Assembly (NCBI GenBank): GCA_016744455.1
Contig: JADGEI010000001.1
Coordinates: 518,884 to 582,883, forward strand
Reading direction: 5' to 3'
Source of the DNA: Alcanivoracaceae bacterium
Lineage (GTDB): Bacteria > Pseudomonadota > Gammaproteobacteria > Xanthomonadales > Marinicellaceae
Length of the DNA stretch: 64,000 nucleotides
Under the pieces are notes generated by a model. That model was given only the letters and a program-made list of their open reading frames with translations, was not told the origin of the DNA and did not search any database. Position 1 is the stretch's first letter; every line of letters starts with the position of its first letter. Shown here piece after piece: positions 4,181-48,066 of this stretch. Position numbers and translations under genes: made by a program.

Positions 4181-6295
4181 TTATTCGAAAACCATATCAT
4201 TTTTAGCATGTTTGATTAAAATATCAGCAGGTGTAAATCTTACTCCGAAACGGCTTTCTAAATCATTTAATTTATCTAAAATGGTGCTGGCACCTTGGGT
4301 GTTAATGTAACTAAATGGGCCACCAGTAAATGGAGGGAAACCTAAGCCTAATATTGCAGCTAAATCTCCGTCACTGGCAGATGATATAATGCCTTCTTGT
4401 AAACACAGCAGGGCTTCATTAACCATAGATAAGCCAATTTGATTTTGAACTTTTTCTTTATCCAGTTCTTTGCGTTCTTCACCGCCGAAATATTTGTATA
4501 TGCCTGTATTGACGGTTTTACGCCCTTTTTTTGGGTAATTGTAAAATCCTTTATTTGCTTTACGCCCCAATAATTTAGCATCGGATAATCTTTGTACGCT
4601 ATCATCCTCTTCAATCCCGCGATCACGGAACATTTCACCTAAATCACCTCGGGCAATATGAGCTGCAACATCTATACCTACCTCATCGAGTAATGATAAG
4701 GGACCAACTGGAAATCCCCAATCTTTCATAGCGTTATCAATGCATTCTATCGAAGCCCCTTGTTTTAATACTTGAATGGCCTCATGAGTTAAGGCAGATA
4801 GTATTCTTGTCGTATAGAAACCTGGGCCATCTTTAACAATTACGACAGTTTTTCCTTGATCTAGTCCTACATTAGTTGCAATCGCTTTCGCTCTTGCAGA
4901 CGTTTTGTCTGTAATAATGATTTCCAATAATGGCATCTTAGGTACAGGAGAAAAATAATGCATTCCCACTACGTTTTCGGGGTTTTTTGTATTGGCAGCG
5001 ATATCAGCAACTGGTAAAGATGAAGTGTTGGTGGCAAATATAGTGTTGTTTGCACAGGTGTTTTCGACACCTGATAAAATCTTTTGTTTTAAATCAATGT
5101 CTTCGAATACAGCTTCTATAACTAAATCAACTTCTTTCATGTCCGTTTCTTTAACTGTAGTTGTGATCTTTGACATTAATGTGTCACGCTCAACATGTCC
5201 CATGGCTTTGCGTTTAACTAATCGATTAAAGTCGTACCAAATGGTTTTAAGGGCTTTTCCTAAACCTTCTAAATTTATGTCTTTAAGAATTACATCATAG
5301 CCTGCTTTAATTGAAACTTCTGTGATTCCTGCTCCCATAAATCCTGCACCAATCATAGCAATAGTATCTACCTGGTGTGTTTTTGCATCGGACCTTAATT
5401 TTTTGTTATCTTGCATAGCTAAAAATAAGCCAATTAAGTTTTGACACGCAGGTGTTCCATGTAAAAAACCAAATCCCGCTGATTCTGCTTCCAATCCTGC
5501 TGCAAACCCATTATCCAACCCAATTTCCACACAATCAAGGATTTTTAGTGGAGCAGGGTAGTTGCCACGAGTTTTACGAGTGACTGTTTCACGAGCTTTT
5601 TTCAATACAAGGTTCCTGCCTATAGATGTATTTAGAGCCTTATCAAGTATACTTTTTTTGCGAAGTTTTTTCTTTATGCCACCATTCGTTATTGCTTGTG
5701 TAGCTACTTTGATCGCTGCTTGTAAAAGACCTTCTTTATGTATTAGTTCATCGACTAATCCAATTTTCTTAGCTTTGAATGGATAAACGTTTTTCCCTGT
5801 AAGTAACATATCTAAGGCGTTTCGCAACCCTACATATTTGACACTTCTTTGTGTACCACCTCCACCAGGTAGTAAACCTAGCTTAATTTCGGGAAATCCA
5901 AATACGGTTTTCTTGTCAACGCTTGCTATACGGTAATGACAAGCTAAAGCAAACTCTAATCCACCACCAAGTGTTGCGCCGTTTATTGCAGCAATAACGG
6001 GTTTTGATAAATTTGCTAAACGGTTCAACAGTTTGTTTCCACCTCTTGAAAGTTCTTCAGCTTCTTCGCTACTTTTCATTTCCATAAAGGCTTTTATATC
6101 TGCTCCTGCAACCCAGCAATCTTTTTTCTTGCTGTAAAGAATGGCCGCATTTATACCTTTATCTTCTTCAATGGTGTCTAATAAACCTTTGAAATCATCT
6201 AACATACTTGCAGATAAAACATTTACTGGGGATTTTGGCTGATCTAAATATATGATTGCAATGCCATCTTGTTTTTCAATTGTAAAATAGGCCAT
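4181..6295 (-). CDS. fadJ: Fatty acid oxidation complex alpha subunit (enoyl-CoA hydratase / 3-hydroxyacyl-CoA dehydrogenase)
   Basis: A 704-residue multifunctional beta-oxidation enzyme. The N-terminal crotonase domain has WVAGADIKAFMEM, NGATLGGGLEFALACHYRIA and GFPEIKLGLLPGGGGTQR. The NAD-binding Rossmann motif IGAGFMGAGI begins near residue 317. The dehydrogenase domains follow, with GMHYFSPVPKMPLLEII (catalytic His), KDGPGFYTTRI and a final FPPFTGGPFSY. Its start overlaps the thiolase stop as TAATG, so the two subunits are translationally coupled. The gene order thiolase-then-alpha and the thiolase's FadI-like features suggest FadJ/FadI rather than FadB/FadA. It should act on acyl-CoA in the cytoplasm. 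No odd residues were seen. Confidence 0.93.
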   Translation of the reverse strand: MAYFTIEKQDGIAIIYLDQPKSPVNVLSASMLDDFKGLLDTIEEDKGINAAILYSKKKDCWVAGADIKAFMEMKSSEEAEELSRGGNKLLNRLANLSKPVIAAINGATLGGGLEFALACHYRIASVDKKTVFGFPEIKLGLLPGGGGTQRSVKYVGLRNALDMLLTGKNVYPFKAKKIGLVDELIHKEGLLQAAIKVATQAITNGGIKKKLRKKSILDKALNTSIGRNLVLKKARETVTRKTRGNYPAPLKILDCVEIGLDNGFAAGLEAESAGFGFLHGTPACQNLIGLFLAMQDNKKLRSDAKTHQVDTIAMIGAGFMGAGITEVSIKAGYDVILKDINLEGLGKALKTIWYDFNRLVKRKAMGHVERDTLMSKITTTVKETDMKEVDLVIEAVFEDIDLKQKILSGVENTCANNTIFATNTSSLPVADIAANTKNPENVVGMHYFSPVPKMPLLEIIITDKTSARAKAIATNVGLDQGKTVVIVKDGPGFYTTRILSALTHEAIQVLKQGASIECIDNAMKDWGFPVGPLSLLDEVGIDVAAHIARGDLGEMFRDRGIEEDDSVQRLSDAKLLGRKANKGFYNYPKKGRKTVNTGIYKYFGGEERKELDKEKVQNQIGLSMVNEALLCLQEGIISSASDGDLAAILGLGFPPFTGGPFSYINTQGASTILDKLNDLESRFGVRFTPADILIKHAKNDMVFE

Positions 6296-7698
6296 TATGA
6301 ATTCTCCTCATTAGGATTTACTTTTTTGCTTGTTTTTTTAGTTACTTTCTTTTTTGAAACCTTTTTCTTAGTCACTTTCTTCTTAGTCGTTTTAACAGAT
6401 GGGCTGTTTGAAATTTTCTTGAGTAAAATACTGCTTCCTTGCCCCCCTGCTGCACATGCTGAAATGAGGGCGTATTTACCATCACTTGCCATCAATCTTC
6501 TAGTGGCGGAAATTAATAACCTTCCACCTGTTGCACCAAATGGATGTCCTAGAGATAAAGAACCCCCTTCGGTATTAATTTTATCCATTGGAATCTCACC
6601 AAATGCATCTTTTAATCCCAAATGTTCTCTACAGAATTCTGCATCTTGCAAAGCATTTAAATTGGCAAGAACCTGTCCTGCAAAAGCTTCATGGATTTCA
6701 AATACAGATATGTCTGATAATTTTAACCCAGCTTCATTTAATAGCTTAGGGATAGTGAAGGCAGGCCCTAGTAAGAGTTCACCATCAGGATTATGTGCTG
6801 AATATTGGTAACCATAAATGACAACTTCTGGTGTGTATCCTTGTTTTTTTGCCTCATCTATGTGCATTAATAAACAAGCCGAAGCACCATCCGTCAGAGG
6901 AGATGCGTTACCAGCTGTGACTGTACCAATAGGTTTTACAAAAACTGGGCGAAGGCCTGAGAGTTTCTGTATTGAAGAGGTAGCATAAAATGTGTTATCT
7001 TGTTCCATTGGTTTAAATTCTGGAGCAACCAACATGGGGGCTACTTCATTATCAAACTTACCATCTTTCCAAGCTTGTGTAGCTAATTGATGAGAGCGTA
7101 AGGCAAATTCATCTTGTTGCATACGTGATACACCAAAACGTGCAGCTAGCCTATCAGCATCTTGCCCCATTGTTTTGCCTGTTGAAAACTCAGCAATTGC
7201 AGGTGGTACTGGGATTAAGTCTTTAAATTTAAACTGCTTAAACAAATTCCAATAATCTTTTGCACCTTTTGCGCGCTGTGCTTTCATTAAAACGGTTTTA
7301 AACTTATCTGATATTCTGACTGGTGCATCTGATGTTGATTCTACACCACCGGCTATAGCTGTTTTCATTACACCTGCTTCAATGGCTTCAACGGTATTTG
7401 TGATTGCTCGATTTGCTGATATACAAGCTTGAGTAACTGTTGAGGCTGGTATAGATAAATCATAACCTGCTCCTATCAAAGATTCTCGTGCTACATTACT
7501 CGTAGCAGCATTATGTATAACACAGCCCATGGTTACTTGTTCACATTTATCTTCCAAAATAGGATTACGTTTTTTTAGTGCCAATAAAGCTTCTCTTCCT
7601 AAATCATAGGATTTAAGTTTGGCATACGGCCCGGGTGACTTTGCAAACGGAGTTCTTACGCCATCAATAAATGCTACTTTTGCTTGTTTAAATATCAT
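6295..7698 (-). CDS. fadI: Acetyl-CoA C-acyltransferase with lysine-rich C-terminal tail
   Basis: The thiolase that ends each beta-oxidation cycle. The nucleophile Cys is in VTQACISANRAI (about residue 90); the catalytic HEAFAGQVLANL, GGSLSLGHPFGATGGR and SACAAGGQGSS motifs follow. The segment DLIPVPPAIAEFSTGKTMG matches the FadI/trifunctional-beta branch. After the thiolase fold ends (SSILLKKI), about 40 extra residues are almost all Lys, Thr, Ser and Val in KKVTKK/KKVSKK repeats; this is not part of the usual enzyme. The track starts at TTG 7710; I prefer ATG 7698 (MIFKQAKVAFIDG). It forms a fadI-fadJ operon driven by a promoter that carries a 14-bp palindrome. Confidence 0.93.
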   Translation of the reverse strand: MIFKQAKVAFIDGVRTPFAKSPGPYAKLKSYDLGREALLALKKRNPILEDKCEQVTMGCVIHNAATSNVARESLIGAGYDLSIPASTVTQACISANRAITNTVEAIEAGVMKTAIAGGVESTSDAPVRISDKFKTVLMKAQRAKGAKDYWNLFKQFKFKDLIPVPPAIAEFSTGKTMGQDADRLAARFGVSRMQQDEFALRSHQLATQAWKDGKFDNEVAPMLVAPEFKPMEQDNTFYATSSIQKLSGLRPVFVKPIGTVTAGNASPLTDGASACLLMHIDEAKKQGYTPEVVIYGYQYSAHNPDGELLLGPAFTIPKLLNEAGLKLSDISVFEIHEAFAGQVLANLNALQDAEFCREHLGLKDAFGEIPMDKINTEGGSLSLGHPFGATGGRLLISATRRLMASDGKYALISACAAGGQGSSILLKKISNSPSVKTTKKKVTKKKVSKKKVTKKTSKKVNPNEENS

Positions 7699-7737
7699 GA
7701 ATGTTCTCAATTAAATATGAATCCATACATTGTTACC

Positions 7738-7757
7738 ATACGCATGCGTATTGTCAA
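7738..7757 (-). promoter_or_regulatory. fadI promoter -35 box with abutting 14-bp palindrome operator
   Basis: On the minus strand, TTGACA (complement of 7752-7757) is followed directly by the perfect palindrome ATACGCATGCGTAT (7738-7751). A weak -10 candidate, AACAAT, lies 17 bases after the -35 box. The palindrome therefore fills most of the promoter spacer, a classical repressor position, about 40 bases before the fadI ATG. The same 14 bases occur upstream of fabA. The regulator is unknown; the site does not look like the E. coli FadR operator. Confidence 0.6.
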
Positions 7758-46061: not shown

Positions 46062-47282
46062 TTAGTCTTTAAATTTTTGCAATACCAAAGTAGCATTGGT
46101 TCCACCAAATCCAAAACTATTTGACATGACTGTTTTTAATTCAATGTCTTCAATTAACTCACTTACAATTGGTGTGCCTTCAGGAATTTTCTCGTCTAAT
46201 TGTGTTATGTTGGCAGAAGCTGAAATAAAGCTGTTTTCCATCATTTGCAATGAATATATTGCTTCATGTACACCTGCTGCGCCTAATGAATGGCCTGATA
46301 ATGACTTGGTTGATGTGATTTTTGGCATATCATCTTTGAATACTTCAGTAATGGCTTTGAGTTCAGTTGTATCACCTGCGGGTGTACTTGTGCCATGTGC
46401 ATTGAGGTAATCTACTCTACCTTCTACTGTGCTCAATGCTTGATTCATACATCTAACAGCACCCTCACCTGAAGGGGCGACCATATTATACCCATCTGAT
46501 GTAGCACCATAACCTACAATTTCACAAAGAATATTAGCACCACGTGCTTGAGCATGTTCTAAACTTTCCACAACCACAACCCCTGCCCCACCAGCAATAA
46601 CGAACCCATCGCGAGTTTGGTCATAGGGTCTTGATGCGGTTTCTGGTGTATCATTATACTTTGTTGATAAAGCTCCCATAGCATCAAACATCATACTCAA
46701 AGTCCAATGTTCTTCTTCTCCACCACCTGCAAATACAATATCTTGTTTACCAAATTGAATTTGTTCCATTGCTAAACCAATGCAATGCGAACTTGTTGCA
46801 CAAGCTGAGCTAAGTGAGTAATTTAAACCTTTAATTTTAAATGGTGTCGCTAATGTCGCGGATATACCGCTCCCCATCGTTTTGGTTACCACATAGGGGC
46901 CAACTCGGCGAATTCCACGTTCTCGTAAAGTGTCTACTCGGTCGACTATACAATCTGAAGATGTGCCTCCAGCACCTATGATTAATCCAGTTCTAATATT
47001 CGATACTTGATCATCATTTAACCCAGAATGTTCGATGGCTTCTTTCATCGCGATATAAGCATAAGCAGAACCAGTTCCCATAAAACGTAAATCCTTACGC
47101 CCTATATGGTCTTTAAAGTTAATGTCTACACTGCCAGATACATGGCTTCTTAAACCTTGTTCTTTATAGCTTTCATTGTATGATATCCCAGATTCACCTG
47201 ACTTAAGGGAGTCTAAAACTTCTGTTTTATTATTGCCTAAGCATGACACAATCCCATAACCCGTGATAACAACTCTTTTCAT
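46062..47282 (-). CDS. fabB: Beta-ketoacyl-ACP synthase I
   Basis: 406 residues. The catalytic Cys is in [14 protein letters not shown] (about 163), with the two His in [14 protein letters not shown] and [15 protein letters not shown], the Cys-His-His triad. The ending [15 protein letters not shown] is conserved. FabB extends fatty acids and is needed for unsaturated chains made after FabA. Its start overlaps the fabA stop (ATGA), so both are made from one mRNA. The fabA-fabB order is typical of many gammaproteobacteria. Confidence 0.97.
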
Positions 47283-47797
47283 CAGAAATTCTCCGTCGAA
47301 GTGAATAGCCCTACACGTAATTTATTTGCAGTATATATAATTTTCCCATCTACATTTACAGTACCATCAGCTATAGCATACTTTAGTTTTGAATCTATCA
47401 TGCGTTTAATATTGAGCTTATATGTGACTTTCTTTGCATTTGGGAGTACTTGCCCTCGAAATTTAACATCACCAACACCAAGGGCTCGCCCTTTGCCTTT
47501 GTAACCGTTCCAGATCATATGAAAACCAACGAGTTGCCATAATGCATCAAGACCTAGGCATCCAGGCATTACTGGGTCACCTTCAAAGTGACAAGCAAAA
47601 AACCATAGATCTGGATTTATGTCTAATTCAGCAATTATTTCACCTTTTCCAAACTCCCCACCATCGCTATTAATATTGATTATTCTATCTACCATTAACA
47701 TATTACCAGCAGGTAATTTTGCATTATCCATCCCAAATAATTTTCCTTGACTACACTTGATTAAGTCATTTTTACTAAAGCTGCTTTGTTGCGACAT
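47282..47797 (-). CDS. fabA: 3-hydroxydecanoyl-ACP dehydratase / isomerase
   Basis: 171 residues. The active-site His is in [24 protein letters not shown] (about 72), with the catalytic Asp in the same hot-dog helix (GLDALWQ). FabA dehydrates 3-hydroxydecanoyl-ACP and isomerises the double bond, the key step of anaerobic unsaturated fatty acid synthesis. It has a good sigma70 promoter, a FabR-like box and a palindrome shared with fadI. The gene heads a fabA-fabB operon. Confidence 0.97.
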
Positions 47798-47828: not shown

Positions 47829-47857
47829 ATACTAAGTGGATTAATTAGCATTGTCAA
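47829..47857 (-). promoter_or_regulatory. Sigma70 promoter of fabA-fabB
   Basis: On the minus strand TTGACA (complement of 47852-47857), a 17-base spacer and TAGTAT (complement of 47829-47834) form a near-consensus promoter about 30 bases before the fabA ATG. Confidence 0.75.
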
Positions 47858-47882: not shown

Positions 47883-47900
47883 AGTTTACATGTGTACGCT
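47883..47900 (-). promoter_or_regulatory. FabR-like box upstream of the fabA promoter
   Basis: The minus strand reads AGCGTACACATGTAAACT. By memory, the E. coli FabR operator is AGCGTACACGTGTTCGCT, giving 14 of 18 matches, with the 5' half perfect. It lies 25 bases upstream of the -35 box. No fabR gene is in the window, so the match needs testing. Confidence 0.45.
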
Positions 47901-47992
47901 TAAATTTTATATTGAAATAATCAAACGTTGAATATATCATGGTAACCATATGATATACATGAATTATTTATACAATTGACTTATATACATAC

Positions 47993-48006
47993 ATACGCAT
48001 GCGTAT
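47993..48006. promoter_or_regulatory. 14-bp palindrome identical to the fadI operator
   Basis: ATACGCATGCGTAT, a perfect 14-bp palindrome, about 195 bases before the fabA ATG and 135 before its -35 box. The only other copy I see in the window is inside the fadI promoter. The distance fits an upstream activator site or a second, distal promoter of fabA. Confidence 0.6.
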
Positions 48007-48066
48007 CTAATTGGTAAAATTAATTTTGGTGTAAGCAATTGATCTTGTCTTTAAGAATAATACGTA

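Follow-up and report, generated by a model that had tools for sequence, protein, structure and literature searches.

Which protein binds the perfect 14-bp palindrome ATACGCATGCGTAT that lies in the promoter of the fatty acid degradation genes fadI and fadJ and recurs 5' of fabA and fabB? An initial annotation of the window, i.e. the whole analysed stretch of 64,000 nucleotides, had proposed a regulator other than FadR in a FadR-like double role, repressing the fad genes and activating fabA and fabB. Most likely the palindrome is the landing site of TfmR, the fatty-acid-sensing regulator of the order. We assign a probability of about 0.85 to the reading that it is the operator of a TfmR orthologue governing the fad genes and fabAB, with TfmR as the putative binder in the window's own genome (G000).

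The palindrome in the window, the genome and the family

The fadI-fadJ locus holds the following features:
4181-6295, minus strand: fadJ, fatty acid oxidation complex alpha subunit (NF008363, 1.2e-237)
6295-7698, minus strand: fadI, acetyl-CoA C-acyltransferase (NF006516, 2.1e-133)
7729-7757, minus strand: fadI promoter, TTGACA at 7757-7752, a 17-bp spacer with the operator, and the -10 box AACAAT at 7734-7729
7736-7753, no strand: predicted TfmR operator at fadI, 18-mer CCATACGCATGCGTATTG with the perfect 14-bp core at 7738-7751

The profile matches bore out the gene names fadI, fadJ, fabA and fabB of the initial annotation. As described there, the palindrome adjoins the -35 box of fadI: the minus-strand TTGACA abuts positions 7738-7751, and the palindrome takes up the greater part of the 17 bp that separate TTGACA from AACAAT, 40 bp from the fadI start codon at 7698. 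The second copy, at 47993-48006 5' of fabA, had been noted as the only other one in the window; it is also the only other exact copy in the whole 3.62 Mb genome. Both genomic copies thus precede fad or fab genes and none stands at an unrelated gene, while a copy with one mismatch was not found in the 3.62 Mb. From base composition 0.013 exact copies per genome are expected against the two observed, which agrees with the earlier view that a chance repeat is unlikely.

The two central bases of the palindrome differ among the other ten genomes in the genus, giving ATACGCNNGCGTAT; the general form of the operator is CCATACGCNNGCGTATGG. All exact ATACGCNNGCGTAT matches in the genus lie before fadI, before fabA or within the intergenic region of fadE and a tetR gene. 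The pattern was also searched across the family, taken to be Marinicellaceae (Lysobacterales) on account of its named members Marinicella litoralis and M. pacifica: in 33 genomes, 55 of 55 exact sites precede fadE/tetR, fadI or fabA, one of them, at a contig end (G009:C203), being placed by synteny. The reversed pattern as control yielded no match in these 33 genomes. Site and spacing at fadI are identical in nine genomes of the window's genus and 16 Marinicella/g4 genomes, and the layout TTGACA-ATACGCNNGCGTATGGT-GAAAAT is kept in relatives. The repeated palindrome, present before the fad and fab genes of relatives, is a genuine conserved site. In the window's own genome the general motif stands at four places: fadI, fabA, fadE (exact ATACGCNNGCGTAT) and fadH.

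Genome matches with one mismatch were rejected as further targets, most of them being located inside open reading frames; only fadH and variant fadI and fadE sites were upheld. One sequence at a single mismatch from the TfmR core, ATACGTGGGCGTAT, recurs in G005, G006, G007, G008 and G010 (e.g. L061:2001-2014, L050:2001-2014) between a TonB-dependent receptor gene and an unassigned gene for 446 amino acids; it is absent from the window's genome.

The TfmR orthologue beside fadE

The third exact site lies beside a regulator gene elsewhere in the genome:
outside the window, G000 contig C4, 101036-101602, minus strand: tfmR orthologue, divergent from fadE

The gene encodes a TetR-family protein of 189 amino acids with an N-terminal TetR-type helix-turn-helix domain (PF00440, 5.4e-12). 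An AlphaFold model of an orthologue from the genus (pLDDT 89.5) matched TetR structures including the Bacillus FadR; the model has the TetR fold, and the predicted structure does not discriminate the ligand. Orthologues were present in 191 of 200 genomes of the order, covering 67 of 69 genera, nearly always in single copy, and were found in named Xanthomonas and Stenotrophomonas records as well. The proteins of the window's genus share approximately 40 % identity with those of Xanthomonadaceae. In relatives the tetR gene diverges from mhpC/fadE or from fadE, as described for TfmR (PMC6637906). Its neighbourhood, its order-wide single copy and the named Xanthomonas records identify this gene as a TfmR orthologue. 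The X. citri protein (XAC3052) represses fadE and fadH by direct binding; long-chain fatty acids release TfmR and abolished its DNA binding in EMSA (PMC6637906). TfmR occurs in most Xanthomonadales divergent from mhpC/fadE, which it represses 50- to 100-fold, with a KD near 87 nM (PMC6637906).

Two dyads lie between fadE and tetR, one over the fadE -35 box and the other over the -10 box. Such paired operators, approximately 36-38 bp apart, occupy the tetR-fadE intergenic region throughout the order and are kept in other families and in named relatives, Xanthomonas and Stenotrophomonas among them, often as CCATAC-N6-GTATGG. These Xanthomonas-type operators, e.g. CCATACTTAATGGTATGG, are looser than CCATACGCNNGCGTATGG, thus the operator specificity has drifted. 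At fadE and fadI the predicted operators overlap the promoter, a position in which the bound protein would act as a repressor would. TfmR can be named as the probable binder, the motif-linked tetR gene having its own conserved sites at fadE. Within the family, exact sites were present in 25 of the 28 genomes that had a TfmR match and in 2 of the 5 that had none (Fisher p 0.03); G120 and G130, both fragmented assemblies, had no TfmR match, yet contain the fadI site.

fadH as independent check

The fourth dyad of the own genome, CCATACTCTTGCGTATGG, lies 34-51 bp before fadH, which was identified by its match to the E. coli 2,4-dienoyl-CoA reductase 1ps9 (8e-184). In X. citri, fadH is a direct TfmR target by EMSA and ChIP (PMC6637906). 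A matrix trained on fadE and fadI sites only revealed sites in all genus genomes with an examined fadH upstream region and the motif before fadH in X. euvesicatoria, S. maltophilia, Pseudoxanthomonas, Luteimonas and Lysobacter; with the same matrix a fadH site was not found in Marinicella. Thus the motif is tied to an experimentally proven TfmR target, and Xanthomonadaceae as well as the own genome have predicted operators at both fadE and fadH. The fadH operator is regulatory site and coding sequence at once; it falls within the 3' end of the nagZ-like open reading frame before it (L252:1461-1520).

The site at fabA and the sign of regulation

The fabA-fabB locus presents these features:
46062-47282, minus strand: fabB, beta-ketoacyl-ACP synthase I (NF005935, above curated cut-off)
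47282-47797, minus strand: fabA, 3-hydroxydecanoyl-ACP dehydratase/isomerase (TIGR01749, above curated cut-off)
47829-47857, minus strand: proximal fabA promoter TTGACA-N17-TAGTAT (promoter scan), conserved in all genus genomes
47991-48008, no strand: predicted TfmR operator 5' of fabA, perfect 14-bp core at 47993-48006

Each examined fabA upstream region of the genus carries one or two TfmR operators. The conserved blocks of these regions are the operator and the proximal promoter, the operator being the longest in an alignment of seven genus genomes. The palindrome lies approximately 195 bp before the ATG, outside the conserved core promoter; across the genus the operator is located 105-143 bp upstream of the conserved proximal -35 box. 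In the family, fabA (E < 1e-40) was detected in one Marinicella and in G018 besides the window's genus; G018 has neither a TfmR match nor a site. Of 18 genomes from g3, a Marinicella-like genus, only 1 had FabA at this threshold, hence most of them must use another route to unsaturated fatty acids or a divergent FabA.

In the whole order, 42 of 89 fabA upstream regions had a site above the 99 % level of shuffled sequences with a matrix trained on tfmR-fadE sites only, a count that overstates independence because the fabA loci are related. Of 37 distinct cases, 22 have a TTGA[CT] beginning 7-10 bp beyond the operator, 15 of them at exactly 9 bp, against a background of 0.004 per position. This operator, ending 7-10 bp before the -35 box in several other families, suggests an activator-like geometry and contrasts with the overlapping sites at fadE and fadI. 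As a test of dual regulation, the positions are repressor-type at fadE and fadI, activator-type at fabA elsewhere and distant in the window's genus. A direct activation of other genes, rpfG and hrpX, by TfmR has been reported in X. oryzae pv. oryzicola (PMC11173191); the X. citri protein did not bind hrpX (PMC6637906). In the X. citri tfmR mutant unsaturated fatty acids made up a larger share; these were mainly iso-branched, and the straight-chain unsaturated ones were unchanged. This profile counts against an activation of fabA, as do the 105-143 bp in the genus, which are far for a simple activator. From the site position in related families, an activation of fabA by TfmR has about even odds.

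Alternatively, the same regulator may act with the opposite sign: TfmR would repress a distal fabA promoter with the operator in its spacer, and fatty acids would derepress the fad genes and fabAB together. We consider this a tentative reading of appreciable weight, somewhat behind activation. In its favour, TetR proteins usually repress, unsaturated fatty acids were raised in the X. citri tfmR mutant, and the genus sequences show a -10-like box at a constant distance after the operator (TATATA, TATATT, TATTTT, TACATT), with TTTAAA at the second of twin sites. However, the -35 boxes that would go with it are poor (TTAGAT, GTAGAT), the distal promoter is absent from the list of the promoter scan, and the promoter conserved at fabA is the proximal one. 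In other families the operator stands upstream of the -35 box instead of covering the core promoter.

Other candidate binders

Another TetR or GntR regulator may bind the palindrome, the tetR gene beside fadE being a mere neighbour. The own genome encodes further TetR proteins, and binding by the TfmR orthologue is a prediction here; nevertheless we regard this as improbable, as the tetR-fadE gap holds two operators throughout the order, experiments in X. citri have proven the targets fadE and fadH that are predicted here, and the occurrence of sites follows the presence of TfmR.

Still less probable is a site of one of the established fatty acid regulators FadR, FabR or PsrA, although FabR is encoded in the own genome and has fabA as its usual target. 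FadR was excluded as binder: the FadR_C domain (PF07840) was detected in none of the 33 family genomes, with a positive E. coli control. The PsrA-type box G/CAAAC-N2-4-GTTTG/C is unlike the palindrome (PMC10304680). For FabR, a separate element was located:
47883-47900, minus strand: FabR-like site AGCGTACACATGTAAACT, 15 of 18 positions matching the presumed E. coli FabR site

The full E. coli FabR site served as yardstick for AGCGTACACATGTAAACT; its core ACAnnTGT agrees with the published one (PMC4804515). G000, G001, G004 and G009 encode FabR and have a FabR-like site 103-106 bp before fabA (103 bp in the own genome); within the genus such a site was found only in genomes encoding FabR. G005, G006 and G007 have no FabR above the cut-off and no FabR-like site at fabA; in these three the TfmR operator is twinned, with 27 bp between the two copies. 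FabR with its site versus twin operators gave a Fisher p of 0.03 for seven genomes, kinship ignored. FabR was therefore rejected as binder of the palindrome: it has its own site, which tracks fabR, and the palindrome persists, even twinned, without it. The fabR gene of G004 (C141:53563-54162, L365) contains one in-frame TAG, a sequencing error or a sign of a decaying gene. A near-palindrome, ATATCATGGTAACCATATGATAT, at 47934-47956, flanked by the TfmR and FabR sites of fabA, lacks conservation within the genus.

That the palindrome is a chance repeat or a structural element without regulatory role has a negligible probability: it is short and has two copies in one window, but the expected frequency given above is low, and 27 of the 33 family genomes, as well as genomes outside the family, keep it at orthologous promoters.

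With FadR_C absent, the motif limited to fad and fab promoters and TfmR to be named, the initial annotation was largely right in its double role by another regulator. The part of it that stood is the non-FadR regulator at both operons; the activating half at fabAB is favoured by the position in related families and disfavoured by the X. citri mutant profile.

Proposed mechanism and comparison with known systems

Without long-chain fatty acids, a TfmR dimer would occupy CCATACGCNNGCGTATGG and silence fadE, fadIJ and fadH, by covering the -35 and -10 boxes at fadE and the spacer at fadI. It would also be bound 5' of fabAB and couple the synthesis of unsaturated fatty acids to the same signal; if it activates fabA, it would be an analogue of FadR built on a TetR protein. 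A release of TfmR by long-chain fatty acids or their CoA esters would switch degradation on and end the effect on fabAB. Most likely, then, one switch ties the burning of fat (fadE, fadIJ, fadH) to the making of unsaturated fat (fabAB). The wider view, for which we would lay slightly less than even odds, is that TfmR is the order-wide counterpart of FadR in Lysobacterales/Xanthomonadales, a TetR-type fatty acid sensor repressing beta-oxidation and activating fabA whose evolution was independent of the GntR-type FadR, and that part of the genus gained a second fabA operator where FabR was lost.

With the X. citri system the locus shares a TetR gene that is present once and diverges from fadE (or mhpC-fadE), the paired operators in between, the target fadH and the order-wide distribution in Xanthomonadales. 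It differs in that mhpC is absent between tfmR and fadE and the operator is more regular (CCATACGCNNGCGTATGG); the predicted sites at fadIJ and fabAB add to the known targets. FadR of E. coli and Shewanella likewise is an acyl-responsive regulator with sites at fad genes and fabA/fabB, with FabR also acting at fabA (PMC4537474), but belongs to the GntR family, an unrelated protein with a different palindrome, and an activation of fabA by TfmR is only a possibility. FabR, a TetR repressor of fabA/fabB (PMC4804515), shares with TfmR the protein family and the locus fabA, and has an orthologue in the own genome; its site is an element apart from the palindrome. PsrA and the PsrA-like Smlt2053/XAC2014 (PMC10304680) also are TetR repressors of beta-oxidation genes that answer to fatty acids, but use a different box and belong to an operon with fadB/fadA-type genes instead of diverging from fadE.

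The TfmR regulon is known in part; neither an operator sequence nor a link to fabA was found in the main text of PMC6637906 or in PMC11173191. New here are the operator sequence and fadIJ and fabAB as predicted targets, which provide TfmR with a small predicted regulon. This suggests how an order without FadR could couple fatty acid breakdown and unsaturated fatty acid synthesis. The order includes Xanthomonas and Stenotrophomonas, and TfmR affects virulence in Xanthomonas; besides the known degradation targets, the predicted target fabA would offer a testable route via membrane composition.
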